Assembly (NCBI GenBank): GCA_963930775.1
Contig: OZ005694.1
Location: 3,782,001-3,846,000 of the forward strand
Source: Cliona cf. orientalis
Lineage: Eukaryota; Porifera; Demospongiae; Clionaida; Clionaidae
Reading direction: 5' to 3'
Length of the DNA stretch: 64,000 bases
Shown here: in pieces, positions 4,510 to 60,140 of the stretch
How positions within the stretch are numbered: the stretch's first letter is position 1
How the letters are laid out: every line of letters starts with the position of its first letter
Program-made: the position numbers and the translations under genes
The notes under the pieces: generated by a model
Told to the model about the DNA's origin: nothing
The model's input: only the letters and a program-made list of their open reading frames with translations
Databases searched by the model: none

Positions 4510-7500
4510 ATGAGCGATAATCCTCCCGATTTACCACCATCAGCATGCATTCAAGAGACGGGATTGGAAGTCATCAAGAAGGCTCCAGAGGCACAAAATA
4601 CTAAGCCATCCCCAACCACTTCACTTAGCAATGGAATAACAAGCACTAAAACCAAGCTTGCTTTTAAAAAGCCACCACCTCCTTTGCAGGCAAAGCCGTC
4701 TCGCTTTCTTAAAACAAAATCTCTTACACTGTCCTCTCTTCCAAGGCTAGGGCACAAAAGCTCCAGTGCAAATTCAAAGGAAGGGAGTGAAGAGAACATT
4801 GAGGCTCTAATATCACAAGACTCTAAAGGGCAACAGCGAGAGTCACATCATTGGAAGCTACGTGGAATATCTTCTCTCAAAAAGAATAGAAGGCATTCAG
4901 CTGTGGAGGAGAATGCCTCTGTACCAAGTGATCAACCAAGAATATCGAGCACTCCTCCAGAAAAACGTACAGCTCTTATCACAGCAGTGAGCACTCCACC
5001 ACGTCAGCAACGTGAACTACCACCTCTGCCTACCATCCCTCCTCTTGGTGTTCCATTTCCTCTCAGCAGCTTGGAGGGCCAAAATGATACACAAGTGAAT
5101 ACGTTCCCCCAAACAAGTGGCCAAGATATTACTGAAGCTGTGCCTGTTCCAGCAGTGGCTGCAGATCACACTCTTGAAGCTGATGAAACAGATATTAAGA
5201 ACCACAGCACATCAAGCATTAGTATTGATCAGAATGGAACTCAATCTCACAGTTCTTTGTCATATTCTGCCGAATCTTTCACCCACCAAATAACAAGTGA
5301 TCCCCAATCATCTAGTACACCAAAGAGTATCCACAGCTTTGCTCCAAATGGACAAGTGGAGAAGACAGACACTATATGCAGCTTGATCCAAAAGTATCCT
5401 CAGTATATTCCAGTTCGAATCCGAGTATTACAAGGTTACTGCAGTGATACTGCTGATATAAACATATCCACTGGCGATCTATACGATATTCAGCAGATAA
5501 GAGCAACTAAAGTGGTCACTGTCAGGGATCAGGATGGAATGTCCTGCCGTGTTCCTATTGAATCTTCAATGAAATTTGGCCTTGTCTTCAACTTGAGCAG
5601 TAATTACGATGAGGGTTTGTGTGGGTATACGTTCAAGACAGTGTCTGATCTCACGTCACTGTCAATTCTGCCCAAAATTGTATGCACTATGAAAGCATAT
5701 GAAGGAAATGATGCACGAGGAAGTATTCAGGAGAATGAGATCCTAATGATTCAGCAAGCATTGAAGTCAAAGTTCCGGGGAAAGAAAGGGATAAAGGTCT
5801 ATAGCCTACTGACAAGAACTGAAAAAGTGCTACCAGAGGAGTGTGATGTGGGATTCTCTACCAACCCTTCACTTGTTAGGGTCCATCCTTCAGATATCAT
5901 TGAGCACATAGCCAACCCATTCCCTGCTCATGCTGTAATGTACCCTTCCACTGAAAGTACAGTTGAAGATCCCGGTAAGTATGGCTATAGGTGCAGCTTA
6001 CTAGTACATGGATATGGAGTATTATACCCTTGCTTACTGCTATAATCCATAATTACTAATGGGCGAGAGTCATTAAATAAATAGAATAAGATGGTGTGCT
6101 TGCTTGCGTGTCCATTCTACACCAAGTCCTAGTTTCTGTACTTGTCATGTATACCGAATTTTAATATGATTTATCTCTATAGGAACCCTATCCCGAGTGA
6201 TTACGATGCTTGATTACAGTACCAAACAATCTCTAATCGTATCCGCTGTTATTGGAGAAAATGACGACATAGCCACAGATGAATCATTGTTCTTTGAAAT
6301 TCCACTGGACGATGATATGAAAGACATAGATGTGTCAATTTTGAAGTGGACCACACCATCAGAGAGTCCTGAAATAACAATATCACCAAAAGAAGATGAG
6401 GCCACCAATGCTGGTACAAGTGATGATGATCATGTTTATGACGATACAATAAATCTCCTTCAAACTTCTGAAACACTACGTCATCTAGCAGAAAGTCGTC
6501 GAAGCTCCAATTCAATTGATGGATGTGGAAATGGAAATATGTCTGGTCGGTCCAGTCCTGTGGGCGTTTACATGGGAGGAACTCCACCCCTTCCTGACAA
6601 ACCTAAGTGGCTCTCACAGCATCCACCACCAAATGCAACTGATGCTAATTTTCTTGCCCCAAAGTATGACAATATTCCACCTGGCTTACCTGCAGCTAGG
6701 CCAGAGGGAAGGAGGATGGCTCCAATCTCACAAGTTTCTGAAGAGGAAGATCCTGGGTAAATAGACTAATCACTATTATAGTTGCCTCAGTAAGTAGCTA
6801 TAGGAACCTATAAGCCTCGTCAATTATCGTACATGGGTATTTTAATGGCTTCTTCCCCAATGGTCACTCTAATAATACAGCATGATTAATACTTCTGCAG
6901 GTATGACACAGTAGGTACTCACCTCCTAAAGAGAGCTAGTTCTCCTGCTGAATACAACAAACTACAGTATGAGGGATATGATGGTGGCGATCCAAGAATT
7001 GTTTCTTGGATGGAGGATATCCAGTCAGCCACAAACTCCCTTGAAAACAGATTGGTGTCATTGGAATGTCGCCATAAACAAGAAGCACAATCAACTGAAA
7101 TAAAACAGTGAGCTTAATACATTATTATTGTGGCACGAGGTACATGGCAATTGAATTTCATTCCATTGAGCCCAGTTGCAAATCTATAGCTATAATACCA
7201 CACCATGACAGTAGATCACGAGATTTCCAGGACTAATGGTTTGTAGGAATCATGCTTAGTTTATCACCTACACACTGCATGTTGCTGATTTTTAGCTACC
7301 TTGGTGTACAAGCATGCATGATTCCCTATCAAGAAGCTTGCTGCCCTTCAGCGAGCATGAATGTTCATTGATAATGCAAGCAATAGCATACAAATTGAAG
7401 AGTAATTATGCATAATCCTGGATATATAGGATGCACATAATTCTGGAGGAACTGACACAGAAGATTGAATCATTTGATTCACAACTCCAAAGATTGTCGC

Positions 7501-8429
7501 TCTCGAGATCCAACCCTCAACTACATGATACTGATCTTGATACAGTTAACCATAAACAGAGCTCAGATCAGCCAGCCTCAGATGAACAAAGTAACCAGGA
7601 CTATTTGAAGTCGTTGGATACCATGAAGGTGCATATTATCTAGATTTAATGCTAATGCTCAATTTATTGAATTTGCTTCTGCAGTGCACAATTGTGTACT
7701 GTAACTAGCTATTCATGTAACTAGGTATACGTAGTACCCGTGTTACTAACTAGTAACCATACATGTAAGAAAGGTTACAGCAATTTTTAGGAGTAGCAAG
7801 CTAGCTATCCACTAAGGTTTGAGGCTCCATGGCTGCAGTACATGAACTTACAGCGGTTAAAGTGCAAGTGCAGATACTCTCAAGATTAGTGATTCACAGG
7901 TTGATCGAGTATACTAGCTAAGTACACACTGTACTTTGTGAGGCTTCAATAATCATTATCCCAACACACACTAATGAGCACTGCTGGTGACTTATATACC
8001 GGTACTTCAACTACAGCTTAGATGTATACCCTTGATCATAGTATATAATAGCACTGAGCTTCATTGCTTCATTGACTAGCTGTGTAACTGTGATTCCACT
8101 TGCAGGCTGTTAATGTGTGGCTCAATCACTACAAATTTTTATATTCTTACCGCAACATTGTCATTATTATGCATAATTTATTCCCCTACTGATCATATAT
8201 AACTGCACTCTCCACGCAGGTATGTAAACTGATTGATGTCATGGGGCTTGGTCAGTACAAAAAGAAATTTATAGAAGAGCACATCAGTGGAGAGATCCTA
8301 GTTGAGTGTGATGAGCAGGTGTTACAGGACGAACTTGGTGTTCACTCAAGAATACATCGCATCCGATTAATGAAGGTCATCACTGGACTTCATTCCGCCA
8401 AGGCACTCCTTGATACAAACAGAGATTAA
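4510..8429 (+). CDS. CABIT gene A: GAREM-like CABIT + coiled coil + SAM scaffold
   Basis: Five coding exons, 4510-5974, 6183-6756, 6901-7107, 7430-7628 and 8220-8429, join in frame to 884 residues. Residues 1-290 are disordered, basic and proline-rich (KKPPPPLQAKPSRF, ELPPLPTIPP). A CABIT module spans about 295-480 (RIRVLQGY, then KVVTVRDQDG, then VPIESSMKFGLVF) and ends in LPEECDVGFST with Cys445. Next come an acidic stretch, GTPPLPDKPKW, and tyrosines in YDNI and VYDDT contexts. A coiled coil follows (about 730-770), and the final exon encodes a SAM domain (about 816-880). CABIT first and SAM last is the layout of GAREM, an adaptor that binds GRB2 and SHP2 downstream of receptor tyrosine kinases. 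THEMIS has CABIT but no SAM. All of CABIT lies in exon 1 without introns, unlike gene B. Function is inferred from architecture; the domain calls are firm. Confidence 0.87.
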
Positions 8430-8534
8430 AAACTTAGTCATATAATATTATATAAATCTTGATATAGCTATATAGTGGCACTACAATAATATCTGTATTA
8501 AAGTAGTACAAGGTGAAATCTTGTAAACAATGCA

Positions 8535-8540
8535 AATAAA
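8535..8540 (+). terminator. Poly(A) signal of CABIT gene A
   Basis: A canonical AATAAA lies 106 bases after the stop codon at 8427-8429. It is the first such hexamer downstream on this strand. Confidence 0.6.
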
Positions 8541-8565
8541 GATATAAATACTCAGCATAATAATT

Positions 8566-9775: not shown

Positions 9776-9896
9776 GACTCATAGGCAACTCAATTACCAC
9801 ACACACCGGGTGGGGTGTACAAAACAATACTTGATAAAACAATAACTTAGATCAGGTACTAGTATGAAGTGACATCGTTCTCAGTTTCTATCTGCA

Positions 9897-10078
9897 TGAA
9901 ACAAACGAAGATTCTTTGCGGACAACTTAACTGTTCGGTAAAACTTGCCGACTCGCGTTTCGACTAGATGCTCTAATCATCCTTTTGCCCTGAGGATGAC
10001 TAGAGCATCTAGTCGAAACGTCGGCAAGTTTACCGAACAGTTATTAAAGCTGTCCACAAAGAATCTTCGTTTGTTTCA
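9897..10078. repeat. 182-bp foldback (hairpin) element
   Basis: Two arms starting TGAAACAAACGAAGATTCTT are inverted copies of each other and run almost to the centre, where ATCATCC pairs with GGATGA across about 11 loop bases. Arms differ at a few positions, for example an extra TCGCG on the left. No coding capacity. CAGGTACTAGTAT occurs at the right edge (from 10077) and again about 45 bases left of the left arm, which may be a trace of insertion. Confidence 0.8.
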
Positions 10079-11864: not shown

Positions 11865-11969
11865 ATCTCATAGTCACCTACAAGCTTCTCATAGTCACCT
11901 ACAAGATTTTCATAGTCACCTACAAGTTTTGCCCCCTGGCTCTAGCAATACAAAGCTATAATAATATTA

Positions 11970-12126
11970 TGATCTAAACTTGTTACTAATAGACACTGTT
12001 TAGTCGGTTTCTATGTGATTTAGAAGACCTCAGGGCTCTCATAGACCCCTTGCTTCGCTCGGGATTCTATATAGAGTCCTTCGGTCTTCTAAATCACGTA
12101 GAAACCTCCTAAACAGTGTCTAACTA
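11970..12126. repeat. Hairpin repeat family H, copy 2
   Basis: Same hairpin as 11582-11732, including TTTAGAAGACCTCAGGGCTC and CTAAACAGTGTCTAACTA, with scattered substitutions. It lies about 240 bases from copy 1, just outside the TIR element that contains copy 1. Confidence 0.78.
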
Positions 12127-13165: not shown

Positions 13166-16100
13166 ATGAATGAAGATCACCCAAGTGAGGAGTATGAAGA
13201 GATAGAATTGGATCCTTCTGGTATGCCCCTTCTTGGTAGTTCACCTGCTCATGCTCGACCTGACCCTGTTGGGATGGTAGGTACTGCTGCAGTGTCTCCT
13301 TCACGTAGACCTCCCATGCCGTTGCCAGGATCCACTCCTCCGATATCAGGTGAGTATTAATGATATAATTGTGAGCTGTGAGCCATGCATGTAAGTTGGG
13401 GGTGTCTACATGGTAGAACTGAAGTACATGGATTGGTGGGCATGAGTGAACACTGTTGCTGTTGATTGGGTGAGGATCAATAAACTGTGTTGCATTTTCC
13501 CATATTAAAAGAACTGGCCGAGAGTGTGTCACAACACACGAAGATTTTGCTCCATAATTATAACGGTCTATTCCATGATATGATATTGAAGTTGCTAAAC
13601 CATTTTACCAAAGGCTTGTGACTGCACAGGTGAAAATAGTACCTCTGCTAATAACCCCTTTGGCACCGGACCACGCAGGTCCAATCCAGTCCAACGTGCC
13701 ATGAGCAGGTCTGCTGGGAAGAGACCACCTCCCCTCCCTCCACCAAACAAAAGCGTGTATGATTCTCTCACTGAAGGTCAGTTAATTTATTGTGCACTCT
13801 GTGTTATACACCAGGGCTCACCTTATGGCATGAGTATTGGGGGTGTTTAGTTACTATCTTCTATTATTATAGTCTCCTACCTTTATCAGTCGATCTTGTT
13901 ATTTCCTCTCACACTCACACACATGTATAGGTCCTCCCCTGCCCAATCCAAACAAAGGTTGGCCTAAGCATAGGCCTGCAATGTCAAGTAAGCTTCACAT
14001 AGGTGCAAGTAGATTCTGGTTAGTATTGTGATTTGATTGGCTCGATCCAACTACTTTAAGTACTTACTTAGTACTTATAACCCAGTTTTGATACCTGTAT
14101 GCATGTAGCTATAGGGTAACATGTTGGCTTAGGTATCCATAATAGTTTGTACACCCAATGCTGGTCCAGGAGTATAGGACATTTCAGAGCTTTCACAAAC
14201 ACAAACACTATGAATTATTATGCAAACACACTTTGATGTGTGCATTAAGTCTGTGCCACTATTATATGGGTATATGTATTGAAGTAATGAACTTGTAGTT
14301 GTATGCATGTGTACATTAATTCTGCACAATGAAAACATTGTAGATTATGCTGTTCCCAGAATACCTCCTGAGGTTCCAACCAGAAAGGTACGTGGTAAAG
14401 GCATCAGTCCCTTGGATCCTGATGCTCCACCTCTGCCTCCTAAACCGGTACGTTTCGAGCTAGCAGTTTGCATAATATAGTTATATTATAATATTACCGT
14501 ACCCTCGCGAAAGAGGGCCCCATGGGCGGTGAACATTACATTGGGCCAAGATTGGGGGATGGGCCGATATTCGAGGTATCAGTATTGTGTTTATACGCGA
14601 AAGAGCGCCCAGGTAAGTTATGCTAGCTTCATAATTAGAATAGTAGCAGCGGCTAATATTGATTTCAGCCTTATTCAAGCACGGTTACCAATCCAGAGCA
14701 AGGGCGGCCGCGATACTTCACCGTGTGTTGTTGCAGCCCTATTAAGTGGGCGTGGCTACGATCGCTGGCCGTATACGTTCTGCTGAAACGTGGCATAAAG
14801 CTAGCTAGGCTTAGTTTTACAGCTGTTTAGCACGATATTTATCAATCTTACATAGACTATTTCAAGTTCAGTCCTCACAAACCGGCCATTTGAGCTGCAT
14901 TTCAAGGGCAGCTACACATGGGCGCATATTCGAGTAAGCATTAGACCTTAGCAGGAAATTGAGCCCAAAGTGGGAGGTGGGCCGATATTCCGTAGTGGGC
15001 CCTCTTTCGCGAGGGTACGGTATTATTATTGCTCAATTAAAGGGTAGCCATGCAGAACCCACACGATAAGCAGCATCATAAGCACCAGTTGTGTGGTTTT
15101 CTAAACTAGGAGTGTGTAGATAGTAAACTGTGCAGTCAAAACCAGCTGCCTATCTACTAACATATATAAAGGTTACGGGATACATTTTACATGAATTAAT
15201 AATTAATGAGTATGCACTACTATTAATATTATATGGTATCATGTACAGTGTCATGTATAGTGATCATGATTACCGCGTGCACATGCGCAAGGGGAAAAAG
15301 GAATCGGTTGTATTGTTGTCATCGTGAGCACAAAATTGCCATATTGTATTGAGACCTAGGCATCTAAGCGACTCGTAAGCACAACGAATCAGTTGAATTT
15401 GGCGAAAACTGACCTCAATATGTTCAAATCGAGGGATATAGTCCACAAGTGTCAGAAATAGTGCCTTTTTGTTAGCCATCATAGCCACGCCTATGGACAG
15501 TGCCACATTACTAGTACATGAACTGGTAAAGATCATCGACATGATCTAAATATTTACTCGTGACTACACTGCTTGATTGCTATCTGCTGACTGAAAATTA
15601 TGTGTGAAACCAAACCTGACTGTAAGATGGCTATACAATAAAATGTACATGTAGATAGTAGCAGCTCATACCTTCCTAGTCTAGTACAACCAAGCCCGAG
15701 CATATCATTTCTACTATTCTTCCTAAATTCACAAAATTTTAACCTTGCACACAAAAGTATATCAGTGTACAAATTGTGCAATGTGCGCACGGGGTATGTG
15801 CTCTACAGAGCTCTAGTTTAACCACTGGTTAGGTTGATAGGTGGCAATTGAAGCTAACTAAACGTTTGTGTCTTGATCGTGCAAAGACAAGAGGAGCCTA
15901 TGTGATTACAATAATATTATTAATTTGTTCTGTGCACTGGCTTCGAGTTGCATCCTATTCAGACATGTGGTTTTGTACACTTGAATATTATATAGACAAA
16001 AGTATATTGTGTGTATGATCTGATGTCGCTTTCACTAAAATATTGCTCTGTCTGCTATATCATTTCATTGCCAAACACATACCCATTAATAGATTGATTT

Positions 16101-19100
16101 CAAAGAATTGGAAGAATCTCTGTCCCCAAAAGAGAGGAAACCAACACAGGTAATTAAGCTAGAACATCCTTTCATCTTTTGGGTATTGTAATATTGTGGC
16201 ATATTGCATGGAACCCAAAGGTGGTTTAGAGCTTATATAGGGCATTCATCTGAGGGATCTCCTATCTGTAATTCCTTGTGTGTGTGAATTTGTTTATAGC
16301 ATGTTATGATAATAAGAGAATCTATCTCTGCATGTGCTCAAACAATGAATCTGCTTTATCGGCTAAGCTCAGTGGTGCATGTGATTAATCTAGAACTACA
16401 AGTTAAGATGCTGTGACTAAGTTGCCGTTGGTATGAGATATTTGTCCACTAACAACAACTACAGACTAGAGCACTTATAGTTTCTTCGCTCACTCACTCA
16501 CTCACCAATGTTTGCATGTGTATATTGTCCAAATCTAAAGCAGGAGGTGAATCATGTAGATCTATTGTGATAGTAGAAAAAGGAACCTACTATGGTTGAT
16601 AAACATAGTATTGTTACTTGTTTTGTCACACAGACAACCGAGATTAAGGGTGGATGGGCAGCTGAAGGGTATAGCACTGGAGTTTTTTCTCGTGCGTGGA
16701 TTTGAATATTCTTGCTCATTAAAAACCGTCTTGGATCCAAGGCTTTTAAAATGATTGATTGTGATATATAGTGCAATATGCCCACTATTTATGCGCATGT
16801 GATCATGTCCACAGCTAGTTTAGCATTAACTACTCTTCTGAGTGTGTATCTGCTTGATGTGCATAGCAAGGTACAATTTTGGTTTGTGGACAAATTGGTT
16901 TGTGCACACCTGTTACAGTAGCATTATCATTACACTGCCTCCATGGGCCTATATAAACAGACGCATACCAGCTAGTACACACATTGTTAAACCAAAGATT
17001 GGGTTAGTGATTATATGTAGTTTTTAATAACAGGGAATGAGTATGTATACGTAGTCAGCACTACCTAGTTTCAGTACCTGATCTTGAGATTTAAGTGTCA
17101 GAAAAAACTGTTTTCTGAACACGTGACTATGCATAATGGAGCGCATGCTGCAGGAAGAGTTGCAAGAACTGTGATTTTCATGACAATTCTTAGGATCTGG
17201 CCATGTCATTAATTATACTGTGTGTGCAGGGTGCACGTATGTGGGCTCTAGTTTTGTTTCTTCCTCCTCAACTCTTGACAGCATGCAGTACCTAAGAATT
17301 GCCTCTAGATCAATGTGTGAAGAGGTGTCGGCTATATATAATAATATTAATGTGTTTGTCCTGTGTTTCTTTGTACTGTGTATTCATCAGGAGTACATAC
17401 TAGACTCAGAGGAGCTGTCCTTGGAGAACTTCATTTCCAAGTACCAAGATGAACTTCCTCTTCATGTTCGTGTCTGCAAAGGCTTCTATGGCCAGTCTGA
17501 AAGGACCTCCGTCTCTGAGGGAGACACCTTCAACATACATTTCATCAAAAAATCACAGGTACTAAATGAATAATTATTACACTTAATTGACTTAATAAAG
17601 CTAGCATTGGAGTTGCCTATAGGTAGTGGAACCGGGGAGTAGGGGCAGCCTGTCATAACTCTTTGATAACTTTCTTATTGGAATATTGTGCCTTCTCAAT
17701 GCATAAGTTCACCTTTGAGAGGAGGAATGAGGTTCGAATTTCGAATGAGGTGTGCATAATAATATTATGGTTTTAAAGTGCACATGATATTAATGCTACA
17801 CTGTAGCTTAATTTCCCAAGATTTCTTCCTCCATTTATGCATTGACATGTGTACACGTCCTAGTGTATATGCAGAATATTATGTTAATTAGATATCCTTC
17901 TCTGTAGGTGGTCAAAATTCAAGATGGCTGTGGCAGTTCATACAAAGTTGCTCTGAACTCGGGTCTAGAGTTTGGTATCATGTATAATCCAAACAAAAAC
18001 AGAGAAGAAGCTTTAGTAAGTAATGGGTGTAAATGTACTTAGTGTACCGCAGTGTCCCGTGGGCAAGCGCCCATGTACCACATTTCAAGGGGTCAATGTA
18101 GCAGCTTCTATACAAACGTATGGAAATTGTATCCTGGGTAAGCGCCCATGTGGGCCAAAATTGTGATTTATGCTCAAGTGCCCATGGGGTGGGATACTAC
18201 GGTAAGTGTACATACTATACTGGTGTAGGATATGGTTAGCTATAAAGTTTTCCATGCAATACTTTAATAATAAAAATCAGCTGGCTTGATGATAAGATAT
18301 GAATGTCATAATGTAGTAAGTGGAATATTACAATGAAGTTCCTTTGCAGTGTATACATGTATGCATACAAGTACATTTGTTGCACTGTGTAGCTTCAATC
18401 CACTATTATCACCTTCTCTAGGCTGGATTTAAGTTTGACAAAGTGGGGGAATTGTTTCAGCTGACAGTGCTACCCAAGATTGTGCGTGTGACTGGAGGCT
18501 GGAGAGGTCCAAACCCAGAGTCAACTGTTGACAGCAATGAGCTGCTGATAGTCAAGGGAGTTAAACGAAGAATAAATCACAAATATCTCAAAGCTATCAG
18601 CTTGGCATCTAAGGAAAAGAAGGAGCTTCCTGAAAGCTGTGCAGGTTTGTATAGGCTACACATGTAGCACTCTACGTGATATTGTTAGGCCTTTGATAAT
18701 GAGCTGCTTTGAAAGTATAATTTTCTCATAGCTAAACTGTCGACACGTCCATATGATGTTCGACTGTACCTTCCTGACCTGATGGAGATGGTGGACAACC
18801 CTCTACCATCCGTGGCTGTCTTGTTTGTCAGCTCTGACACTGCCCATGAGCTGCCACCCAACATTGTAACATCTGTTGTCACATTGACAGTGAGTTGACC
18901 TGCCTTTTGTGTAGTCTATTAAGTGTTAATGCATGGTCATGACCTCGCACTGTTACTTGACAGGGAGAGTGTAGCCAACAGTTTCGGCATGTTATTCTAG
19001 CTGTTACTCTTTTAGGTGTAGACTAGCTTGGGTTTATGCTGAGAGTTTAGGCCATCCCTCAGTTTGCCTTCATGGAGTGAGTGTAAACCCTTACGTATGC

Positions 19101-37336: not shown

Positions 37337-37704
37337 TCCAATGTGTGATATTGTGACTGTTACATGTAACTCAGTTTATTGCCTGCGATAGTTCAATGCA
37401 TATTAACCATGCTATAAGGACTAGGCATGGGAAAACACCAGCATAGGGATTCATTAATTATCGTATCCCTTCTGTCCTATCAGAATTATTAATATACATA
37501 ATTATGGTGCCGTCACTAAATCGAATTTTATTAACGATAAAGTAAATATTATTGTAGGAAAAATGAATAATGTGGATACTGTTTCATGACAGATGTTGCG
37601 CACAACAGTTTGGGCAACATCATTCAGAAGTCTCAGTGAACGATGATAATATACAAGTCATTATGAGTCGCTATGAGAGACACAGAGGTCCACACAAACT
37701 GAAT

Positions 37705-38415: not shown

Positions 38416-38466
38416 ACATGATGAAAGAATACATACACAAGGGTTATAATAGTATTAAGCTTGATT

Positions 38467-38469
<3 letters not shown>

Positions 38470-38501: not shown

Positions 38502-38502
<1 letters not shown>

Positions 38503-38580
38503 GCAGTAGCCTAGTTCCCTTGTTCCCCCTGGTTCCTACTCCACTGATATCCAATCAATAATGCTTTGCATGACTAAATT

Positions 38581-44900: not shown

Positions 44901-47900
44901 ATCGATTACATCATTGTTTGTGCAGCAGTGCCACGCCCCTGGACGGGTTGCTGTCACGAAATTTAAAACCACGAAAATTAATTTTGAGGGCCTTTTCAGA
45001 CTTTACACGAAAATTAGCCCCCACGAAAATTACCCACCATACGGTATTTCACAATCACATGCCATGTACATTCTTGTGGTACCCTTTGACTCTCTAGCTA
45101 GTACATGTATGTCTTCTCCTTTACTCTACCCCTGCTTGAAGTGTTTTACTAGAGGGCTTCAAATTTATCATTATCTGTTTTTATACACACAGCACAAGAT
45201 CATGAAATATCTACATGTAACACAGTTTCTGAAAGGAAAGGTGATACGACTTCCACCAAGCTTTGCCTCACTTTTCCTTGCCTTGATCTGAAAAATATGG
45301 CAAAAGATGAGAAGGAGAAGCTTCACCAAAGACTCTATTCAGATTCCGTTAACATGATGTGTAAATTTCAGGAACTCTTTTCATCAACAACGAAGTCATT
45401 AAAGGAGCGCAAAATTCAGAAAACAGAGCTTCTATGTCACTTAGTGGGCATGGGTCCAATGAAACCCACTTATAATGATTTAAGCCTCCCACCATTCAGG
45501 TGCCAGCTTCCAGGACTTAAATCGGCCAAGAATTCTGATGATGTAATGTTAGTTATTGGCTACTATTGTTCTTTTTTTGACATACAAATGTTGGAGTGCA
45601 TTATTAACAAAGTTGGAGCTGAGCAGGATAAGAAAAATCTTTCCCAATATATGGAAGAATTTAATCAGTACGCTCAACGCCATGTATTCGAATGTCCATC
45701 TGATATTGGCAAAGTTAGTAAAGAAGAACATGTTAATATGTTTGTGATTCTAGATGAAACTTATGATAAGTGTACTGTCAGCCGATTACAACTATTCGTT
45801 GTTAAGCTTCGAGACATCCTCAATATTTCTCCGGGTGACGGGCTTAAACTTTGTCAAATCACTCCCGGCAGCTTGAGACTTATGTTTCAACTTCCTGCTT
45901 GTGTTGCTAATCACATATTTCCACTATCCAGTGAGCAAGAAGCAGCACTAGCTTGTGAGGGTGTGTATAAGCTGTGGCTCATTTACCAGAGAAAAAAGAG
46001 GTATGGACACTATAATAGCCACATTATGTGCAAATTTGTGCACGTAGTGCTTGCAAGTGTACAAATTTTGGATAAAAGGAAGTCAGATTGTTGAATTTAT
46101 GGATCTAGTATGACCATAATATCTTCTTCATTTTGAACAGGAAAAGGAGGAAACCGCTACAGAATCTTCTAGTAGTAAGTTCAATAATAAATAACGCATG
46201 TCTCAGTGGCGTAGGAAACGAGGAGGCTCCAGGGACTGGCGCCCCCCCCCCCTTGGACTGACATAGCCTCGTACCCAGGCCCTTTCTCCTGAGGTGTTTC
46301 TCCTCCTCCTCAAAGGGCCTGGGTACGAGGCTATGTCAGTCCATGTTCTCAGAGTAGCAAACCCTTGGGAAATTCTCTTAGCCGAGTATTATTATAACAC
46401 AGATTTCTTACCTGGCCTGATTAGGAATAAAATGTGCCTCAATAGCTGCCAAATCTATTCTACTCGACCTACAGTTCGTTTTTTCATTGAGATAGCAGCC
46501 TCGATCATGCAAAAATGGGCGTAGTTTGACACAAAGTAGGCGCGGTCATAAAATTTGAGTGCGCTTCGCGTGCAATTGTATATTCAGCCCCCCAATCTTC
46601 AGCATCTTCCTACGCCTATGTGTCTTTGTAAATCCTATTGTGAAACTAGAGCTCTGTAGAGCACATACCCCTGCGCACTCTGTAGCCGCTGTAGCGTAGT
46701 ATTGCATGCAGAGCTATTTTATGACTCGATGATCCTTTCCAAGACTGAGCTTGAGCATGCACAGTCGTATCAGCACATGCCAATACAGTGGGTATGGTCG
46801 ATAAACCACAGGCATACTGAACAGAAAATGCACAATTTGTAGCTCTAATAAGCCAAAGTGCGTACAAACCAGTTTTTCACCGATATCTACCGATTGGTTA
46901 TACTTACAGCACGCATAAATGCCTAGAACGCAAGATCTGGCGATTATTGTACCAACGTCAACGACAACAACGACAGACATATAAACCGATTGCTTTGCCC
47001 CTTGCGCATGCGTGCGGGATAATTATACTCATGTATGCATGAATGAATATACATGTAAGCAACTGGTGTAATGTACGTATTTTGTGTCCTTGAAGTTAAA
47101 GTGCTTCAGGTCCCCCTCCTTACATGGTATCGGGGGAATGGCAAGATACAACAGTGGCATCATCAGTCATTGCCACAGAATAAATAAGCAATAGTACTAA
47201 TGTTTTCCTCATCGCTACCATTGCAGAGTATATAATTGCTGCTCCCTTATCAGTACCTACCTCATTCTCTCCTCCTTTTCTAGGAAGGGTTTCTGCTTGG
47301 AGCCAGCATTTGCACAACAAGGGCTGAAACTCCGCTCTGCAGTGATGATACAGTGGAATCTCACTTAGCAGTCACTTAGTAAAGCAGTCAGCTTGCTTAT
47401 AGCAGGCAGCATGCAAGGTCCCCAAAAATTTACCAATGCACACAGTACATTGATGCACTTGTTACTATGGATAGCGGCCAGACCAGTGGTCCCAATAGCT
47501 ACAAAGATGGCTATACCTTGTCGAAAGTAGCGGTCAGCCCCATCAAGTTGTATCTCAGCCTTACAATAGAGTATAGCAAGAGTCTTTGGTCTTGGCTTTT
47601 CACAACAAAAAAGGCCAGGTACAAAGTTAATCTGTATCTGTAGACGTGGTGATCTAAATACAATAAAATTGAAATTTCATTGAAATGGGAGGAGCTCAAC
47701 ATGCTTGTATGCAACTCAGTAAAGCAGCCACCTCAATAATTATAGCAGCCAGCATACTCTGATCCCAAGCTATTAAGGTGACCGTTGTAACAAGGTTTCA
47801 CTGTAATATTGTGGCCCTCGCTCTGACTTTCCTCTCAATATATTAATTGCCCAGCACCTTTGCACGAGGCAACTTCACATCTGATTTTGTATGGCCATGC

Positions 47901-50900: not shown

Positions 50901-53607
50901 TCTAGCAATGGTCAGGTTGTCTGGCCAATCAGATTCAGTTTTTGAAATTCATGCAAGCAATTTATGCGTGGGTGTAGAGTAACATTTGGTAAAAATAGGC
51001 ACTAGACTATGCCTACTATGCTTTTATTTTTACTTTCAAACATAGTAACATCAGACTGGGCCATCTGCTGCTGTTTTCTTGTTTTTGAGCCAAGTGTGCA
51101 CTCATAATGCTTCACCAAATGAATTGCATTCCAACACTGACCTTTGTTGGACCCCTTTTTCGCATGTGGATAGAGTGGATATAGGTTGTCGGGCGAAAAA
51201 GGGTCCAACTTGATAGACTAAGCTCTTCCTAGTATCATTAATTGCAGCCAATTATGTGTTGGTAAGTAGTTAAATCTTATTATTGCTTTCCATAGTCTAT
51301 ACAAGGAGTGAGTGAGCAAAGCGAGCTCACTCCTAATGCTTCACTAGAACTGTTTTCACTCGACGACCGTTACTTACTCTATCTGAGTAAAGGTTGTCAG
51401 GCAAAAAGGTTGATTGATTATGGATGCACGTGTACATGCACATCCTAGATGATCATGTGACTTCAATTTAATTTTGCCCCGCCATCCTTTTGAAGTAGCA
51501 TACTTTAGTCGCTACTGGGGCCATTGCCTACTGTGTTGGTGGGCTCTCTGTTGTAATATTCCAAGTTCAGCGGTACCAAGAAAGAAAATGTTTTAGCTCA
51601 GATCCTTTGGCTTCCAGTCACCTCCCGCTCATATGTACGCATGATGAACAGACAAAAAATGCATGAACACCTCGTGTAGCTGGCAGTGGCGGATCCAGGA
51701 TTTCTAGAAGGGGGGTTCTAATATACTGTTGCGCGCATAGCGCGCGCGAATTTTTAGAAGCCACGCCCACTTTCGATCGTTTTTGAGACAATCTACCAGC
51801 TCTACCAGTCCAATCGATCTATTTTTTAACGAATTTCTTCTAAAGTATTCTAAGGTGAGCCACAGCAGCAGTTTTCTTAGTTCTGTAGCCAGAAAGGGGG
51901 GTTCCACTTACCTATCATCAGTATACTTCTTAGTGCTAGGTGTAGCCAAGGGGGGGTTCCTGTGCACCCCTGGATCCCCCTCTGGATCCGCCACTGGCTG
52001 GCCAAGGTTGAAATTCAGCAGTGAGTATTTTGATAAAATTTAATAATGAGATTGTTTTAATGTTAGCTAATGTATTCCTACTGATTATCACTTCTTGTGT
52101 CTAATAATATTATAGTCCAAACTGTTTAGTGGCAACGATAGTATTGCCGTAGTGTCCGGGTAAGCACCCAACATAACTCGCGATTTTGGCCTGCATGGGC
52201 ACTTACCCAGGATCAAAATTCCATACATTTGTATAGAAGCTGCTACATTTACCCCTTAAAATGGGGTACATGGACGCTTACCAGGGAGTGGGCACTTTCC
52301 CGGGACAGTACGGTATGAGTAGAATTGTTTTTATATTATTATCTGTTTTTGATAGCTGACATGAAGGAACCTGATGATGATGCCTCAACTACTGACTCCG
52401 CATTTGGAAGTTGTAGTGTTGTTACTGGATCAACATTCATTGGAACTCTTCATAGCCAGAAGTATCAGGAGGTGAGAAAGTTTGTAGTATGCCTAGAAGT
52501 TGCCATTGCATGTAAAAGGTACTACCAAATCTACAATAGCTAATATGATAGGTAGCAAAAGTAATCCAGTATCATTGTTTACCAATGCAGAAAGAATCTT
52601 CAGCTAGAAAGTTAGATAGCCTTTATAAGAACATGGAACGTGAGTTTGATATGCGAGCTAAACTCCTCTCTCCTAACGAATCCAGTAAATCATTCCCACT
52701 TCATGAAGCTGCATATGGAGGAGAATTGGGAAAAGTTAAGATATATTTAGAAGAAAATCAACATAATCCATTGCAAATGGATGGTTATGGCAATACTGCG
52801 GTACACTATGCAGCAGCTGGTGGTAGTTTACTTACTCTAAAGTTCTTTGTTGAAGAGAGGCAGTGCAGTGCAGCTTGTTTAAGTATTAATGGACGAACGC
52901 CACTCCACTTTGCAGCAGAACACAAACACTTTGACGTGGTAAATTATCTGATTGCTGATCAGCAAATGGATCCGATGATTCAGGATAAACATGGTGTGAC
53001 TGTTCTTCATTCAGCCTGTGTTGGTGGTGATATTCAGATTATCCGTTATCTAATAAAGGAATTGACCAAGTATAGCCCCCTCCATGCTATTGTCAACGAA
53101 AGAGTCAAAGCAGGAAATGCTCCTATTCATTTTGCAGCTCTCTACGGCCATCTGAATGTAATAAAACTTTTTATTACTGAATTTATTTGTGACCCATGCA
53201 TTCTGGGTTGGTGGGATAGAACCCCTCTCCATGCTTCTGCTCAGGAAGGACATTTAGACGTTGTTAGGTATCTAGTAGATCAAGAAATGTGTGATGTATT
53301 ATGCTATGATAAGGATAGAGTTACCCCGCTTCACCTTGCTGCTGCTAAGGGACAATTGGACACTGTAAAATTTCTTGCAGAAAGGAATGGAAATCCGCTT
53401 GTTGTCAACATAGTTAATGATACTGCCCTTCATTGGGCTGCAGAATTTGGCCAGTTGGAGGTTATAAAGTTTTTTGTTGAGACTCTCGGTTGTTCAGCTG
53501 AACTCAAAGGGCATCTTAACATGACACCATTAGAAATAGCTGGTAGAAATAGTCATAGTCATGTTACTCAGTATTTGTGTCAACTGTGCCAGGAATTAGA
53601 TTTGTGA
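41917..53607 (+). CDS. Death-domain / ankyrin-repeat protein
   Basis: Exons 41917-41956, 42790-43071, 43122-43214, 45193-46000, 46141-46174, 52356-52471 and 52591-53607 give about 797 codons. Exon 2 encodes a Death domain (LRKVINELGSVVSKWFQIGI; LGIGESRLHQIEADHRT), residues 15-105. Exon 4 encodes a helical domain of about 270 residues (HVFECPSDIG, VSRLQLFVVKLRDIL, PGSLRLMFQLPA) that I associate with sponge Death-ankyrin proteins. The last exon has nine ankyrin repeats (TPLHFAAEHK, TALHWAAEFG and others). Such proteins are expected to be cytoplasmic death or innate-immune adaptors. The join 46000/46141 is off by one base: exon 5 reads best as EKEETATESSS, which flows into exon 6, but exon 4 ends one base short of that phase. 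The first exon (MNSEDRLGAHDNA) is supported only by phase and donor. The intron 46175-52355 is 6.2 kb of repeats. Confidence 0.8.
42075..42255. repeat. Dispersed repeat, inverted relative to 44275-44425
   Basis: Segments such as TTTTCTGACAAATGGCCCTG and TTCGCGCATTTAATTTTTAC are the reverse complement of sequence inside the 44202-44475 element (AGGGTCATTTGTCTGAAAAT; ACATTAAATGCGCGAA). Both lie in introns of the Death-ankyrin gene. Confidence 0.65.
43490..43715. repeat. Uninterrupted copy of the dispersed repeat at 25608-26120
   Basis: CGTGACGACCATTACCGACC, TTTCTCTGGCTGTTTAAT and ATGACACAAATAGCTAGTTG follow each other without the 241-bp insert seen at 25752-25992. A run of about 16 C lies just to the left (43441). 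Confidence 0.7.
44202..44475. mobile_element. 274-bp MITE with 29-bp TIRs
   Basis: TCTCGTGGACCAGACCACTC at 44202 continues to CCTCCACAG and is inverted at 44447-44475 with one mismatch. The interior carries the dispersed repeat also found inverted at 42075-42255. Non-coding. Confidence 0.82.
44604..45046. mobile_element. 443-bp MITE with TACCGTATG termini (TACCGT family 5)
   Basis: The left end TACCGTATGACGGATAATTT (then TGTGGGGTGCTAATTTTCAT) pairs with the right end (AAAATTAGCCCCCACGAAAA, then TTACCCACCATACGGTA). A second inverted pair lies inside (CCCTCGAAAATTAATGCC against AAAATTAATTTTGAGGG). Its core resembles the repeat at 23368-23770. It lies about 150 bases before exon 4 of the Death-ankyrin gene. 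Confidence 0.85.
46254..46343. repeat. 90-bp near-perfect hairpin, CCCAGGCCCTTT type
   Basis: TGGACTGACATAGCCTCGTA continues to CCCAGGCCCTTT and is mirrored exactly on the right, with only about 25 loop bases rich in CTCCTCCT. Related CCAGGCCCTTT words, often with GAGGAGGAG, occur at 61558, 61915, 62170 and 63225. Confidence 0.85.
46645..46990. repeat. Dispersed ~340-bp repeat, copy 2
   Basis: Second copy of the 40938-41270 repeat, same orientation: CTAGAGCTCTGTAGAGCACA, GTCGATAAACCACAGGCATA, AGATCTGGCGATTATTG. It lies in the long intron of the Death-ankyrin gene. Confidence 0.75.
48238..48760 (-). pseudogene. Antisense ankyrin-repeat pseudogene inside the Death-ankyrin intron
   Basis: Minus-strand translation gives two ankyrin repeats in different frames: NALGYTALMYASHTDHSG followed by TVTLLLDAAKSDD (about 48630-48755), then YGLTALILASFKVHVDIV followed by KQL (about 48545-48600), and FEIAKAKGHQGVVTEL (about 48435-48485). 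Further left, WKVANDWYNPGDFLEVQP (about 48250-48310) is another protein-like piece. Stops and frameshifts separate the pieces. The repeats are not a simple copy of the host gene's ankyrins, so it looks like a different ankyrin gene inserted or duplicated here and then lost. Confidence 0.68.
49355..49910. repeat. Degenerate direct duplication of a ~130-bp unit
   Basis: GATCTCCTCTATGCTAGGTT (49369) and GATCTCCTCTATGCTAGATT (49729) start similar stretches that continue through TTTCATGCAAGCTA, AATTTCATCATAGATTTCAT and a final TTGTTGATT-GGACT, spaced about 360 bases apart. Non-coding. Confidence 0.65.
49983..50528. mobile_element. Degraded copy of the TACCGT family 1 MITE
   Basis: The interior follows 14495-15022 closely: GGGGGATGGGCCGATATTCG, CAGCCTTACTCAAGCACAGT, GCAGTAGACCTCGGCAGGAA, and the right end CCTCTTTTGCGAGGGTAT. 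The termini have decayed (left GTACTGTCGCAAAAAAGGGC), so it is an older insertion than the copy in gene B. Confidence 0.82.
50832..51220. mobile_element. ~390-bp element with imperfect TIRs
   Basis: The left TAGTCTACCAAGCTAGACTC, then CTTTTCCCC and TTATCCACTCTAG, is an imperfect inverse of the right TAGAGTGGATATAGGTTGTC, then GCGAAAAAGGGTCC and TTGATAGACTA. Its subterminal AAAGGGTC word recurs in other TIR families of the window. A related fragment may lie at 51355-51400. Confidence 0.6.
51684..51996. mobile_element. 313-bp MITE with CAGTGGCGGATCC termini
   Basis: CAGTGGCGGATCCAG at 51684 is inverted at the right end (CTGGATCCGCCACTG, ending 51996). GCTGG occurs immediately outside both ends (51679-51683 and 51997-52001). 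CAGTGG-type ends are common in hAT-like elements, which make 8-bp duplications; here only five bases match, so the superfamily is open. Confidence 0.82.
52144..52315. mobile_element. 172-bp MITE, TACCGT family 2, copy 3
   Basis: Ends are GCCGTAGTGTCCGGGTAAGC and CGGGACAGTACGGTA. The interior matches 37705-37879. Its right end is 40 bases before the splice acceptor of exon 6 of the Death-ankyrin gene, so it may supply part of the polypyrimidine or branch region. Confidence 0.8.
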
Positions 53608-55289: not shown

Positions 55290-58200
55290 ATGGCTACAGC
55301 TGGAGCCACCAGTCAACCAGGCAGTAATCTCCAGCCACAGCAGCGGAGCATCACTGCACAACACTTGTCTAGACCACGCAGTCCATCTTCACCACAAGTT
55401 CTCTCAAGACCATCCTTGTCAAGAAGGAAGGCATCCTCTCCTTCTCCTATCCCCAGCAATTCATATAATGGCAGTGAACTAAGGGTAGGTCAAATGAGCC
55501 CGTCTCCACCAAAGCAGCAGGTCATTCTGAGGAGTATAAGTTCAAGGCAGCAGTACACTTCTACTGGCAGTCTTGGAATGAAACCACGTCCCATCCACAG
55601 TATGTTCAGTGTAAGTCAGCCACAGTTGAGTCTCGAACAGTTGGATGTAAACCTCCGTTCTAGAAGTCATACAGTGAGTAGCCATGACCAAAGGAATCGG
55701 TGGAGTACAGGCCCTGGGGAGTGTCCAGATAGCAGCTTTAATAGTGGATCAATAGCAAAAAACTACGATCTCAGCCTCACAAAGCGCTCGGTGGAAGACT
55801 TGCGTCCATTGCCAGTACCAGTAGTAGCTCCCAAGGTTCCTCCAAGACGAGGCTCTCGCTTAACTACTGTCCCTGATCGAAGACACTCAGAGCAGATTGA
55901 TAAAAGGTGTCGTGAAACCCGATCATGTGAAGATATACTTGAAAGTGTGTCTACTGAAGAATTAAAGTTGGAAAAGGCTATACCAAATGGTGGAAGTGTC
56001 ACCTCTCAAGCTCCACTACAGGCTCAGCAACCTTATCCCACTCACAGTCCCTCACCACTTGGCAATGTGGTTTATCATGCTGACTTAGAATCACAAGTCC
56101 AGTCGAGTCAAGGGGAATACCATACAGCCATTTTCAAGGATTCCAACCATAGTAAGGAAATGTTTCAGGCAAACAGAGACCCCGTAGCTGTTTCTACGTC
56201 ACAGAGAAACCATGTATGTACTAGTAATGCTAGTGACTCTGAAGGTAATAGCAGCTACTCAAGAAATCCTCATTCAACTCAAAATCAGTGGACACAGCAA
56301 AAAGATGATCAAAGTGTTGGCAACTCTATGAATCTGTCGGTAAATACACACTATGCCATCCAGCAAGCACAAATGCGGGATCAAATTATTGAAGCAAATG
56401 TGAGTAAAGAGCATTACCAGAGAAGCCCTTCCGTGCCAACGCCACACTCCAGCCACACAGCGGAATTCATCAACCAAAGAAGTGTACCAGTGGACAGTGT
56501 TTATAATTATGGTCCAGACACAAGCGTGACTAGACAACACAGCTCATCTGCACCTCCAATTGATGAGATTAATGATGCAAATTTGAGCGTGACCCCCCAC
56601 ACGCCATGCTCTTCTCCCTCCCCCTCTCCACAGGTTTATAGAGAAGGTACTGAAACAACCATGATTAACATGCCACAGAACTATCAAGCTTTTCAGGACA
56701 ACAAATCAACAACTGCTCCCCACGTACCACATTATGCAATCCCTACCAACTCCCCCAGTAGGCACATGCAGGAGCAAGTACAACAACCAAACAATAATTC
56801 TGTTCAAAACACTACCGTGGTTCAGAGTACACATCACTCCTACGGGCATGAACTTAATCATGCATCAAACAGACAAATACTGACTCCTTCAAACAACAAC
56901 AACAGTACCTGTCACCTTTATCACAGCCAGCCACAAGACATGCACAGTGCTGTGCATACAAATGAAGCACAGCAAGGTGGTTCCACTAATTACTCACTCA
57001 CTCAGCCGGCAGACACTAAACCGTTGCAGTCACCACGGGCAACGGAGGTACAGTCTCACAGTGTATCAAAGAAAGCTCAAGCTTTTGCTCGGGCATTTAG
57101 CCAGTGGCAGTATAATGGTACAACTGCTACTACAAAGAAGGAGCAAGGATCCACAAAACCAAATAGTCATAGTGTGAAGCCACCAGTCAAACCAAAGCCT
57201 GCTGGATTAATGAAAGGTGGCACTTTGAGCGTTAAGCGGGACAAAACCAAATCGCAAAAATCACCTGAAAGTAATACCAAAAAGAAAAGTGGCCAAAAGT
57301 ATATCTTTAAGCAGTCACAGTCACGTACCCTTCTCTCACGAGGTCGAACAGCATCCCAAGTCGATCCGTTGACTGATGTTGGAATGGATTCTCAGTATAA
57401 TAATTATACTCCACTGAACCACTCCCAGCCCCATTCTGGATCAAGCAGTGACTCAACCCTAAGAGGAGAACTCAAGTTCACAGAGAGTCAGAAAGGCTTT
57501 TCAGCTTCAGGCCCTAGTCCCAATTCATATGACTATGGCTCTCAAATGACTCCCACTGGAGATGCTACACTCACACCTTCCTCGTCGCCTGAGCTCTATG
57601 GCCCTCAAGGATACACTCATGATTTACAGCAGCCTGGATCGGTACAAAGCATCAGAGGAGAATTCCCTCGTACGTTGCAGCAACCACAAGTTGATGAGCA
57701 TTCTAAGGTTAATAATGCACCTTCTCCAAATGTTCATTTGCAAACATATCATAAAGGAAACCAATCTGCTGCAAACAATGTCACGGCTGCAAGTTCACTC
57801 CAATCAGCAAATGATACCCATATGAAACCACCATCACCTCACCCTTGTGCCAGCAATAATTATTCTCATTTTCCTACTCCATCTAATGGTCATACATCAA
57901 CTGTTCTTTCAAGTGAGCTGATGCCTTCATCACAGTTAGCACCAATTGCTGAAGCAACCCTGGAGAGTGAGCAATCGATGTCTAGCTTGCTGGATGCCAC
58001 TGAATCAACTGAGAATGGTGTGGCAGATACGAATGTGAGAACATCAGCCAAGCCAATTAATGTCAGCCAGGTAGCCAGTGTAAACAGTAGTTCTGGCACT
58101 AATGAAATTGATGGAAAATCAAGTCCAACAGTTCAGAGATCAACCACTCTTCCATCATCTTATAAGCGACCAAAGCCATATCGATTTAACACACACAAGT

Positions 58201-60140
58201 ACCAATCAATTGACATTCAAGAACAAGATGATAAGCCAATTGAAGATGATAATGCTTTCTCTTCATCAAGTATGAAGCTTTCTGATTTCACTGCCCTCAA
58301 TACAAGTATCTTCCCAAAGCAGGTCAAAGTATCTAGCACTCCCTTGTATTCATCTGGTAAAGCAGAGGTCTCTCAAGGGGAAGTGCTTGATCTTCACTTC
58401 GTTCGCCAAACCAAAGCAGTGATAATGATATCAAATAGTGGAGAAGAGTATGTCGTTCCTCTAAATAGTGCAATCAGGTTCGCTGTTACCTATGATCCTC
58501 TGAATACTGGTCAACTTGTTCATCAAGGTTACCACTTTAAATCCATTGGAGAGTTGATTGCAACAAAAGAGATGCCCTCAATTGTTGTGGCAACGGAGGG
58601 TTACAATGATCCTAAACCTCAGTCTAGTGTAGAAGCTGGTGAGATTCTTGTAATCTGTGGAATTGTAAAGCAGGGACAAGGCCGAGTACTAAAAGTTACC
58701 AGTGTAACACATGGAAGAAAGTTTCTAGAAGAGAGATGTACTGCTAACTTTTCAACTCGATCGGAAGACACTAAACTTTCACTCAATGATATGTTTAAGA
58801 CTTCAGTAAGATTGCCTCAGCAGGCAGTGATCTACCCACCTGCTGGACTTCAGCTACCTGATGGTCTAGTGAATTTGCCAGTGACACTGAAGCAATTTCG
58901 AGTCATCAAATCTGTAATTGCTACACCTGTATCACCTCAAACCTACTCTCCAACCTCCTGTATGGTCTATGACATCAATCTGGAGTTAGGAATTGAAATA
59001 CAAGAGCACAGTGAGATATCAGACCATCAGCTGATAGAAATGCGAGCAAAAACACAAAAATTGTATAGCTCATTTGAACCAGCCAAGGTTGTTCCATTTC
59101 TAAAAGACAGCGTGGGGAGTCAGGAGCAAGTCACAACCACTCAGTCTGCATTGCTGACCAACACTGATCAAAAGGGCAAGTTCCTCGGCATCCAGCTTGA
59201 GCTCCCAGAGTGGCTGGGACAAATGCGAATCTCAAAAGCCAAGCTGCATTCACAGAGAGAATCCTTAACTCTGCAATCAAGTCAAGATGAAGCATACCTA
59301 AGAGGTAGCTCCACACTCCTACCTTTGAATTCGTCGATGTCATTTCAAAGTACAGACCTTGATCAGAGGATGTTGCATATGGAAAGGCACTGTAACCTAA
59401 TGGACAAGAAACTAAATTCCTTAGTTCAGAGCTTTACAAGTGTAGTACATCAGCTCACTAAACTGAAAATGCAATCCAATCTACAATTTCAAATGAGTTC
59501 CGAACAACATCGTGCACATGATCAGTATGTTGAGATGATGCAAAATACAGAATCTGAAGAAGCTCAAAGAGTTTCTCTATCACCTCCAGGAGCAGCAAGC
59601 AAGGAAGCAGACAATCAGCAGGCACGTCAACAACTTGACGAAGAATTTATCAGAGTTAAAGAATGGCAGAAGAAGCAGGAAAAGCATATGCAATGGCAAC
59701 AGGAGCAAGTTCAGCACTGGCAGATAGAATGTGAGAAACAAATGCAAGACATGCAACAGAAGTTAGCGTTACTAGAAGACAGACAAATGAAATTCTTTCA
59801 AGAAGCACAACAGAAAATAAACCAGTGGAAAGATAAGCGACCAGAACCTACTGAATTTCAAACTAAAACAGCAGAGGACGTGAGCCTAGAAAGTATGGCG
59901 AAAATTAAGACAGAAGATAGCAAAAAGCCGCAATTGCCACCAAAACCATCCAGCAAGCTGCTTAGCAAAGCTGTGTCCCCAGCTAAGGATAAGACAAATC
60001 CAGAAGGCGATGAAAGTGCATCATCTGAAGCAGTTGATTTTGGTCTTGATATGATAGCGGACAACATAGCATCATGGTGCTCACAGATGGAATTAGAACT
60101 TGAAGAACTATACACAAACTCAGTAGAGACAAGTCAATAA
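55290..60140 (+). CDS. CABIT gene D: 1616-residue CABIT/coiled-coil scaffold, single coding exon
   Basis: One uninterrupted frame. The ATG at 55290 is chosen because an in-frame TAA lies 15 bases upstream and a splice acceptor precedes it, so the leader is spliced but the coding region is not. Residues 1-1000 are low-complexity, rich in Ser, Gln, Asn and Pro, with basic SH3-ligand-like stretches (PPVKPKPAGLMK, VPPRRGSR). CABIT spans about 1005-1195: DLHFVRQTKAVIMISNSG, VPLNSAIRFAVTYD, GEILVICGIVKQG, FLEERCTANFST with a Cys near 1149. The post-CABIT block follows (LPVTLKQFRVIKSVIATP, VYDINLELGIEI, LYSSFEP). Two coiled coils lie near 1360-1390 and 1445-1515 (WQKKQEKHMQWQQEQVQHWQ). PQLPPKPSSK is a further proline motif before the acidic C-terminus. 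There is no SAM. At 1616 residues it is far longer than GAREM or THEMIS. A signalling scaffold role is inferred. Confidence 0.87.
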   Translation: MATAGATSQPGSNLQPQQRSITAQHLSRPRSPSSPQVLSRPSLSRRKASSPSPIPSNSYNGSELRVGQMSPSPPKQQVILRSISSRQQYTSTGSLGMKPRPIHSMFSVSQPQLSLEQLDVNLRSRSHTVSSHDQRNRWSTGPGECPDSSFNSGSIAKNYDLSLTKRSVEDLRPLPVPVVAPKVPPRRGSRLTTVPDRRHSEQIDKRCRETRSCEDILESVSTEELKLEKAIPNGGSVTSQAPLQAQQPYPTHSPSPLGNVVYHADLESQVQSSQGEYHTAIFKDSNHSKEMFQANRDPVAVSTSQRNHVCTSNASDSEGNSSYSRNPHSTQNQWTQQKDDQSVGNSMNLSVNTHYAIQQAQMRDQIIEANVSKEHYQRSPSVPTPHSSHTAEFINQRSVPVDSVYNYGPDTSVTRQHSSSAPPIDEINDANLSVTPHTPCSSPSPSPQVYREGTETTMINMPQNYQAFQDNKSTTAPHVPHYAIPTNSPSRHMQEQVQQPNNNSVQNTTVVQSTHHSYGHELNHASNRQILTPSNNNNSTCHLYHSQPQDMHSAVHTNEAQQGGSTNYSLTQPADTKPLQSPRATEVQSHSVSKKAQAFARAFSQWQYNGTTATTKKEQGSTKPNSHSVKPPVKPKPAGLMKGGTLSVKRDKTKSQKSPESNTKKKSGQKYIFKQSQSRTLLSRGRTASQVDPLTDVGMDSQYNNYTPLNHSQPHSGSSSDSTLRGELKFTESQKGFSASGPSPNSYDYGSQMTPTGDATLTPSSSPELYGPQGYTHDLQQPGSVQSIRGEFPRTLQQPQVDEHSKVNNAPSPNVHLQTYHKGNQSAANNVTAASSLQSANDTHMKPPSPHPCASNNYSHFPTPSNGHTSTVLSSELMPSSQLAPIAEATLESEQSMSSLLDATESTENGVADTNVRTSAKPINVSQVASVNSSSGTNEIDGKSSPTVQRSTTLPSSYKRPKPYRFNTHKYQSIDIQEQDDKPIEDDNAFSSSSMKLSDFTALNTSIFPKQVKVSSTPLYSSGKAEVSQGEVLDLHFVRQTKAVIMISNSGEEYVVPLNSAIRFAVTYDPLNTGQLVHQGYHFKSIGELIATKEMPSIVVATEGYNDPKPQSSVEAGEILVICGIVKQGQGRVLKVTSVTHGRKFLEERCTANFSTRSEDTKLSLNDMFKTSVRLPQQAVIYPPAGLQLPDGLVNLPVTLKQFRVIKSVIATPVSPQTYSPTSCMVYDINLELGIEIQEHSEISDHQLIEMRAKTQKLYSSFEPAKVVPFLKDSVGSQEQVTTTQSALLTNTDQKGKFLGIQLELPEWLGQMRISKAKLHSQRESLTLQSSQDEAYLRGSSTLLPLNSSMSFQSTDLDQRMLHMERHCNLMDKKLNSLVQSFTSVVHQLTKLKMQSNLQFQMSSEQHRAHDQYVEMMQNTESEEAQRVSLSPPGAASKEADNQQARQQLDEEFIRVKEWQKKQEKHMQWQQEQVQHWQIECEKQMQDMQQKLALLEDRQMKFFQEAQQKINQWKDKRPEPTEFQTKTAEDVSLESMAKIKTEDSKKPQLPPKPSSKLLSKAVSPAKDKTNPEGDESASSEAVDFGLDMIADNIASWCSQMELELEELYTNSVETSQ

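Follow-up and report, generated by a model that had tools for sequence, protein, structure and literature searches.

A genomic cluster of CABIT genes, many paired with a SAM domain, in the sponge Cliona cf. orientalis

Results

Four CABIT genes in the window

The stretch of DNA analysed here, referred to as the window, comprises 64,000 nucleotides (C6:3782001-3846000; contig OZ005694.1) of the Cliona cf. orientalis assembly GCA_963930775.1, which totals 216.8 Mb in 149 contigs. It carries four genes, termed A, B, C and D, each of which encodes exactly one CABIT module (Table 1). A preliminary description made from the sequence alone had placed four CABIT genes here; the modules lie on the plus strand where it had put them, and our gene models fit its outer coordinates, which had served as the starting points for these models. 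The model of gene A is one of four open solutions that differ only at the 5974/6183 junction, and that of gene C is one of five; for gene B, there are 192 in-frame combinations upstream and, with the upstream exons fixed, 20 open solutions towards the 3' end. The protein encoded by gene B begins with a proline-rich N terminus containing the peptide EEYEEIEL, which is followed by the CABIT module and then by a SAM domain. Two open frames of the window run to 1227 and 1620 codons, against 210 codons for the longest frame in 60 Markov shuffles. A repeat search in genes A and C returned nothing of use. The table also lists other open frames of the window.

Table 1. Features of the window and related loci in the genome (window positions unless a contig is named)
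Feature	Position	Strand	Description
Gene A	4510-8429	+	CABIT-SAM protein; 5 exons, 884 aa; GT-AG model
Exons of A	4510-5974, 6183-6756, 6901-7107, 7430-7628, 8220-8429	+	GT-AG
CABIT core of A	~5374-5949	+	Single exon; matched by C (E 1.8e-20) and by D (E 1.2e-14)
SAM domain exon of A	8220-8429	+	SAM_1 40.9 bits (cut-off 23)
Gene B	13166-26798	+	15 exons, 773 aa; GT-AG model
CABIT core of B	17391-17558, 17908-18015, 18422-18644, 18732-18889	+	Four exons, GT-AG, open
SAM domain of B	26453-26572, 26685-26798	+	Two exons; SAM_1 34.9 bits (cut-off 23)
Gene C	28296-32777	+	Exons 28296-28428 and 29122-32777; 1262 aa
CABIT of C	30597-31355	+	PF12736 37.1 bits (cut-off 24)
Chlam_PMP repeat frame	33458-37375	-	Between C and D; 1305-aa open frame with Chlam_PMP repeats, which are of the beta-helix type (46.5 bits, cut-off 20.6)
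Death-domain-like frame	42750-43076	+	Under cut-off (19.0 bits, cut-off 22.6)
Frame without Pfam match	45153-46091		313 aa; after the death-domain-like frame
Ankyrin-repeat frame	52552-53607	+	5' of D; 351 aa (Ank_2 173.4 bits)
Gene D	55290-60140	+	Single exon, 1616 aa; open frame
CABIT of D	58266-59015	+	D vs C E 1.6e-35
CABIT loci on C6, in order	C6	X1 -, X2 +, X34 -, X5 -, X6 +, X7 -, A B C D +, E -	Found with B as query; X5 is C6 locus L010
Cluster span	C6:3,288,965 (SAM of X1) to 3,852,405 (start of the frame of E)		563 kb
CABIT loci off C6	H (C8), F (C11), I (C12), G (C14)
CABIT frame of I_C12	C12:~6411.1-6411.9 kb	-	Locus L018
SAM 3' of X6	C6:3633713-3633871	+	Locus L070; open
Papain-family peptidase frame arrays	C16:190-198 kb and 4848-4863 kb; C19:4508-4580 kb		At least 116 matches genome-wide

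Homology of the CABIT modules

The modules of C, D and A are readily aligned with one another in tblastn searches of the window (E 1.9e-34 between C and D, 1.8e-20 between C and A, and 1.3e-15 between A and D), and when the 217 Mb genome was searched with C, both D (E 1.5e-31) and A (E 7.3e-17) were retrieved. The divided module of B was recovered by a profile built from A, C and D and run against the six frames of the window, which matched its four exons at E 1.3e-13, 4.2e-9, 1.3e-7 and 6.1e-6, the next match being at E 1.1. Full-length BLASTP among the four proteins gave E-values from 1.5e-16 to 1.7e-40 (3.5e-32 for C vs B), with similarity extending past the core, and the four genes are true paralogues, as had been supposed. 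On these comparisons the four CABIT modules are demonstrably homologous.

The landmarks that the preliminary description had given for the module can indeed be aligned, but they are looser than it had claimed: the corresponding segments read DIQQIR, VPIESS and NEIL in A, VALNSG and NELL in B, and DLHFVR in D. Its final motif, C-x-[GA]-F-[ST]-T, does not hold; the four genes have C-x-x-x-[FL]-[ST]-T instead. The aligned cysteine column is kept in 14 of the 15 CABIT copies found in the genome (see below), including all four window genes, and this residue presumably corresponds to the core cysteine of THEMIS. The sole copy without it is X5, which has valine in this column and a SAM domain about 11 kb on its 3' side.

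The Pfam profile PF12736 (cut-off 24 bits) recognizes this family unevenly. Among the window genes, C scores 37.1 bits and B 20.8 bits, while A and D are unlisted at E up to 10, so that one of four translations exceeds the cut-off; the preliminary description had stated that scores below threshold in two or more of the four would speak against its reading, and to the letter this is what was found. Across all 15 cores, seven lie over the cut-off (C, F, G, H, X34, X1 and X2), three lie under it (B; X6, 21.7 bits; I_C12, 23.7 bits), and A, D, E, X5 and X7 are unlisted; a genome-wide Pfam search for PF12736 yielded only three places. However, F scores 42.4 bits and E, which shares 88% identity with F in the core, is unlisted, and thus the profile is insensitive here and a poor test of membership. 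For this reason the objection based on Pfam scores was set aside.

Structure prediction was limited to one AlphaFold job on an alignment of C, D and the core of A, from which B was omitted because it is spliced. The resulting low-confidence model (mean pLDDT 41.7, pTM 0.35), of too low a quality to rely on, contains four strands and one short helix in the part with pLDDT of at least 50 (85 of 343 residues). A search of the PDB with a sequence profile gave no match at E≤1.

Size and layout of the family

Searching the genome with B revealed at least 15 CABIT loci, each at E 2.5e-6 or better, of which 11 are contained in 563 kb of C6; searches with C, D and H added no CABIT locus to those found with B. 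These counts are lower bounds, and X34 and X6 are each taken as one gene, an interpretation based on exons that stand in the right order with long gaps between them. The proposed local cluster is thus borne out and is larger than the four genes first described. Six members, from X7 to E, are packed into approximately 75 kb: a clear CABIT match of X7 on the minus strand ends 2 kb to the left of the window, and the SAM domain of E, also on the minus strand, starts 0.25 kb to its right. The shared orientation that had been pointed out for A to D holds inside the window; however, the one-strand pattern is an effect of the window, since the family extends beyond it on both sides and on both strands. 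Introns are absent from the cores of A, C, D, E, F, G, H and X5 and split the remaining ones.

Association with SAM domains

A and B share the CABIT module, the tail and the terminal SAM domain, and their SAM ends match at 51% identity (E 8.6e-24). A whole-genome search with the SAM domain of A gave at least 11 places at E<1e-3, with B counted once, and the SAM domain of E recovered the same places. In ten of the 11 the SAM domain lies on the same strand as, and within about 11 kb on the 3' side of, a CABIT locus (A, B, X1, X2, X34, X5, X7, E, G_C14 and I_C12). Ten of the 11 also score over the cut-off of SAM_1 or SAM_2, the one under it being I_C12. Two further matches, C13:5153k and C3:6931k, were excluded from the count (E 0.024 and 1.33, respectively, with the SAM of A; 0.0017 and 0.089 with that of E). 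In the same genome searches no SAM domain was found near C, D, F_C11 or H_C8, and a profile of the A and B domains run against the six frames of the window gave no further match under E 1. The initial assignment of A to D as CABIT members stands, but the SAM ends of A and B and the flanking members of the family had been missed. Because a SAM domain ends both A and B, GAREM rather than THEMIS is the right comparison for these two genes, whereas C and D, for which no SAM was found, are classed as CABIT genes and not as GAREM.

Two loci have an unusual arrangement. The SAM domain of locus L070 belongs by sequence to the CABIT-SAM family and lies 57 kb on the 3' side of the nearest CABIT exons, those of X6; it may be part of a long X6 gene or an orphan SAM. 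At I_C12, the CABIT frame changes at the conserved cysteine, and this locus is possibly a decaying copy, although an overlooked intron or an error in the assembly would be possible readings as well.

History of the duplications

A tree was built from the 15 CABIT cores of the Cliona genome only, without an outgroup. Three groups are supported, C+D (98/97), E+F (100/99) and X7+X34+I_C12 (99/97), while nine of the 12 inner forks are open and the terminal branches are long, at a median of 0.87 changes per column. A clade uniting A, B, C and D is absent from the best tree and is not rejected (p-AU 0.138), and the same applies to A+B (p-AU 0.127). The local duplication suggested for the four genes is consequently supported for C and D, because they are both sisters and neighbours, but not for A+B+C+D as one clade. 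Neither C nor D has a detected SAM, which is most simply explained by one loss, and their common ancestor had probably lost the SAM end.

Over 438 codons, the DNA of E and that of F share 89% identity (NG86 dN 0.073, dS 0.283); F thus appears to be subject to purifying selection, even though the genome searches found no SAM near it. All other pairs of cores share 22-46% identity and the introns differ, and most of the CABIT duplications are therefore probably old. We infer that repeated rounds of local duplication enlarged the family, a copy being dispersed now and then.

Sequence motifs outside the CABIT core

Tyrosine and proline motifs were counted outside the CABIT core and compared with 2000 shuffles; these were many tests, uncorrected for multiplicity, and C was represented by its 1227-codon frame. 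Tyrosine motifs occur at shuffle level in A to D, the lowest value being that of A with one Src-type site (151/2000). In B, proline motifs exceed the shuffles, with four class-1 SH3 motifs vs 0.62 expected (3/2000) and 12 PxxP motifs vs 5.58 (16/2000); class-2 SH3 motifs in C are at the margin (3 vs 0.75; 75/2000), and the proline motifs of A and D are not above shuffle. By general binding preferences, the peptide EEYEEIEL in B reads as a Src-type site; it is suggestive, as are KYDNI (gene A) and AYEEV (gene C). Disorder and coiled coils of the four proteins were assessed by eye.

Other features of the genome

The mitochondrial contig has 19,633 bases; its cox1 is open with TGA read as tryptophan, and 19 tRNAs are present in the 10 kb read. 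It also encodes atp9 (ATP-synt_C 48.6 bits, cut-off 24), which among animals is known as a mitochondrial trait of demosponges and homoscleromorphs. No match over the cut-off was found for innexin in the genome (best E 0.377), a result compatible with a sponge but no proof of one. In a search for silicatein among the papain-family peptidase frames, 12 loci of the at least 116 matches were fetched, and the six cathepsin-like frames that were read all have a cysteine at the active site, which left the search without bearing on the nature of the organism.

Discussion

Comparison with known CABIT proteins

CABIT modules are known mainly from growth-factor and T-cell signalling of mammals, which have five CABIT genes, and the family has been traced to cnidarians (PMC4082722). 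CABIT is likewise described as conserved among metazoans and "through protozoa" (PMC3931654), so that a member in a sponge is unsurprising. In GAREM, one CABIT module is combined with a proline-rich region and a SAM domain (PMC4082722; PMC8086153, Figure 1 legend); a proline-rich sequence serves to bind the Grb2 SH3 domain, and an ITIM-like tyrosine, once phosphorylated, serves to bind SHP2 (PMC6852768). SHP-1 is a partner of the CABIT modules of THEMIS, which are reported to favour oxidation of the catalytic cysteine of this phosphatase (PMC10987373).

Genes A and B resemble GAREM1 and GAREM2 (FAM59A/B) in that a CABIT module is followed by SAM, an arrangement suggested for ten of the 15 loci by the SAM on their 3' side. 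Unlike the two GAREM genes of mammals, there are at least 15 CABIT loci here, most of them clustered, and C, D, F and H have no detected SAM; C and D are GAREM-like only in the CABIT module and the proline-containing parts. GAREM1 also has an ITIM-like site at Y453. With THEMIS, THEMIS2 and THEMIS3 the sponge proteins share a CABIT with a conserved cysteine as well as proline-rich stretches; however, THEMIS has two consecutive CABITs (PMC4082722), in contrast to one per window gene and a SAM in A and B. A link to the self-markers described for Halocynthia was considered and dropped; the paper mentions Themis-A and Themis-B as polymorphic loci tied to Ciona self-sterility, and its text does not use the word CABIT (PMC6916515).

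Among the matches listed in a search of the open-licence literature there was no paper on sponge CABIT genes or on a CABIT cluster. Sponge CABIT proteins may well exist in sequence databases.

Interpretation and alternatives

We consider it probable that the four window genes are members of a family of GAREM-type scaffolds that is old and has been duplicated locally, and whose proteins have one CABIT module, low-complexity proline-containing stretches and, mostly, a C-terminal SAM domain. That the module might be an unrelated all-beta module, or resemble CABIT by chance, is very improbable. Such a reading could draw on the fact that A and D are unlisted by PF12736 and on the low confidence of the predicted model, but it is contradicted by the matches of the Pfam-positive C to A and D in both the window and the genome, by the kept cysteine and by the pairing of the same SAM with the module in most members. 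It is less easy to dismiss, though still rather unlikely, that the paralogues are ancestral, having split before the divergence of sponges and been lost for the most part in other lineages, in which case the cluster would be a relic and not a lineage-specific expansion. The low identity of all pairs other than E/F, the long end branches, the intron positions that differ among copies and the failure of A, B, C and D to form one clade in the best tree are what such a history would leave behind; on the other hand, the linkage of 11 of the 15 loci, the sister relationship of C and D and the recent origin of the pair E/F argue for continued duplication in the Cliona lineage. The local expansion proposed in the preliminary description is partly supported, in kind and on an enlarged scale, while its lineage-specificity and the adaptor function are presumed.

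A role of the family in tyrosine-kinase signalling would be expected by analogy. We give about the same modest chance as to the relic to a further alternative, namely that this signalling has been abandoned and CABIT serves as a generic scaffold, so that the layout no longer implies binding of Grb2 or SHP, above all in C and D. The SH2-type tyrosine motifs of A to D are not enriched, C and D have no detected SAM, and CABIT also occurs outside the tyrosine-kinase setting, in RDE-2 of C. elegans, which is entered as CABIT domain-containing in the glossary of PMC11094273. Against this stand the proline motifs of B above shuffle and its Src-type EEYEEIEL, together with the KYDNI of A and the AYEEV of C, read by general binding preferences.

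If the family of GAREM-type scaffolds acts as its mammalian counterparts do, the proline-rich stretches would bind SH3 adaptors such as Grb2, by analogy to GAREM1/2. Activation of a receptor would then lead to phosphorylation of tyrosines in the flexible parts and to recruitment of SH2 proteins, possibly including a SHP2-like phosphatase, while SAM would add protein contacts. A phosphatase may be held in check by binding to the CABIT module, which has the conserved cysteine, as described for THEMIS and SHP-1, and separate members may serve separate receptors or cell types. It is a more speculative idea, which we regard as improbable, that a sponge-specific array of SAM and SAM-less GAREM-type scaffolds diversifies tyrosine-kinase/phosphatase control, for example in contact or self recognition, in an animal without adaptive immunity. 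If this were true, the CABIT-phosphatase principle of T cells would be older than lymphocytes.

So large a CABIT-SAM family in a sponge would suggest that the GAREM layout is ancestral and that the two-CABIT THEMIS is probably a later derivative. The paralogues with and without SAM, and X5 without the cysteine, would constitute a natural panel for the roles of the CABIT cysteine and the SAM domain.
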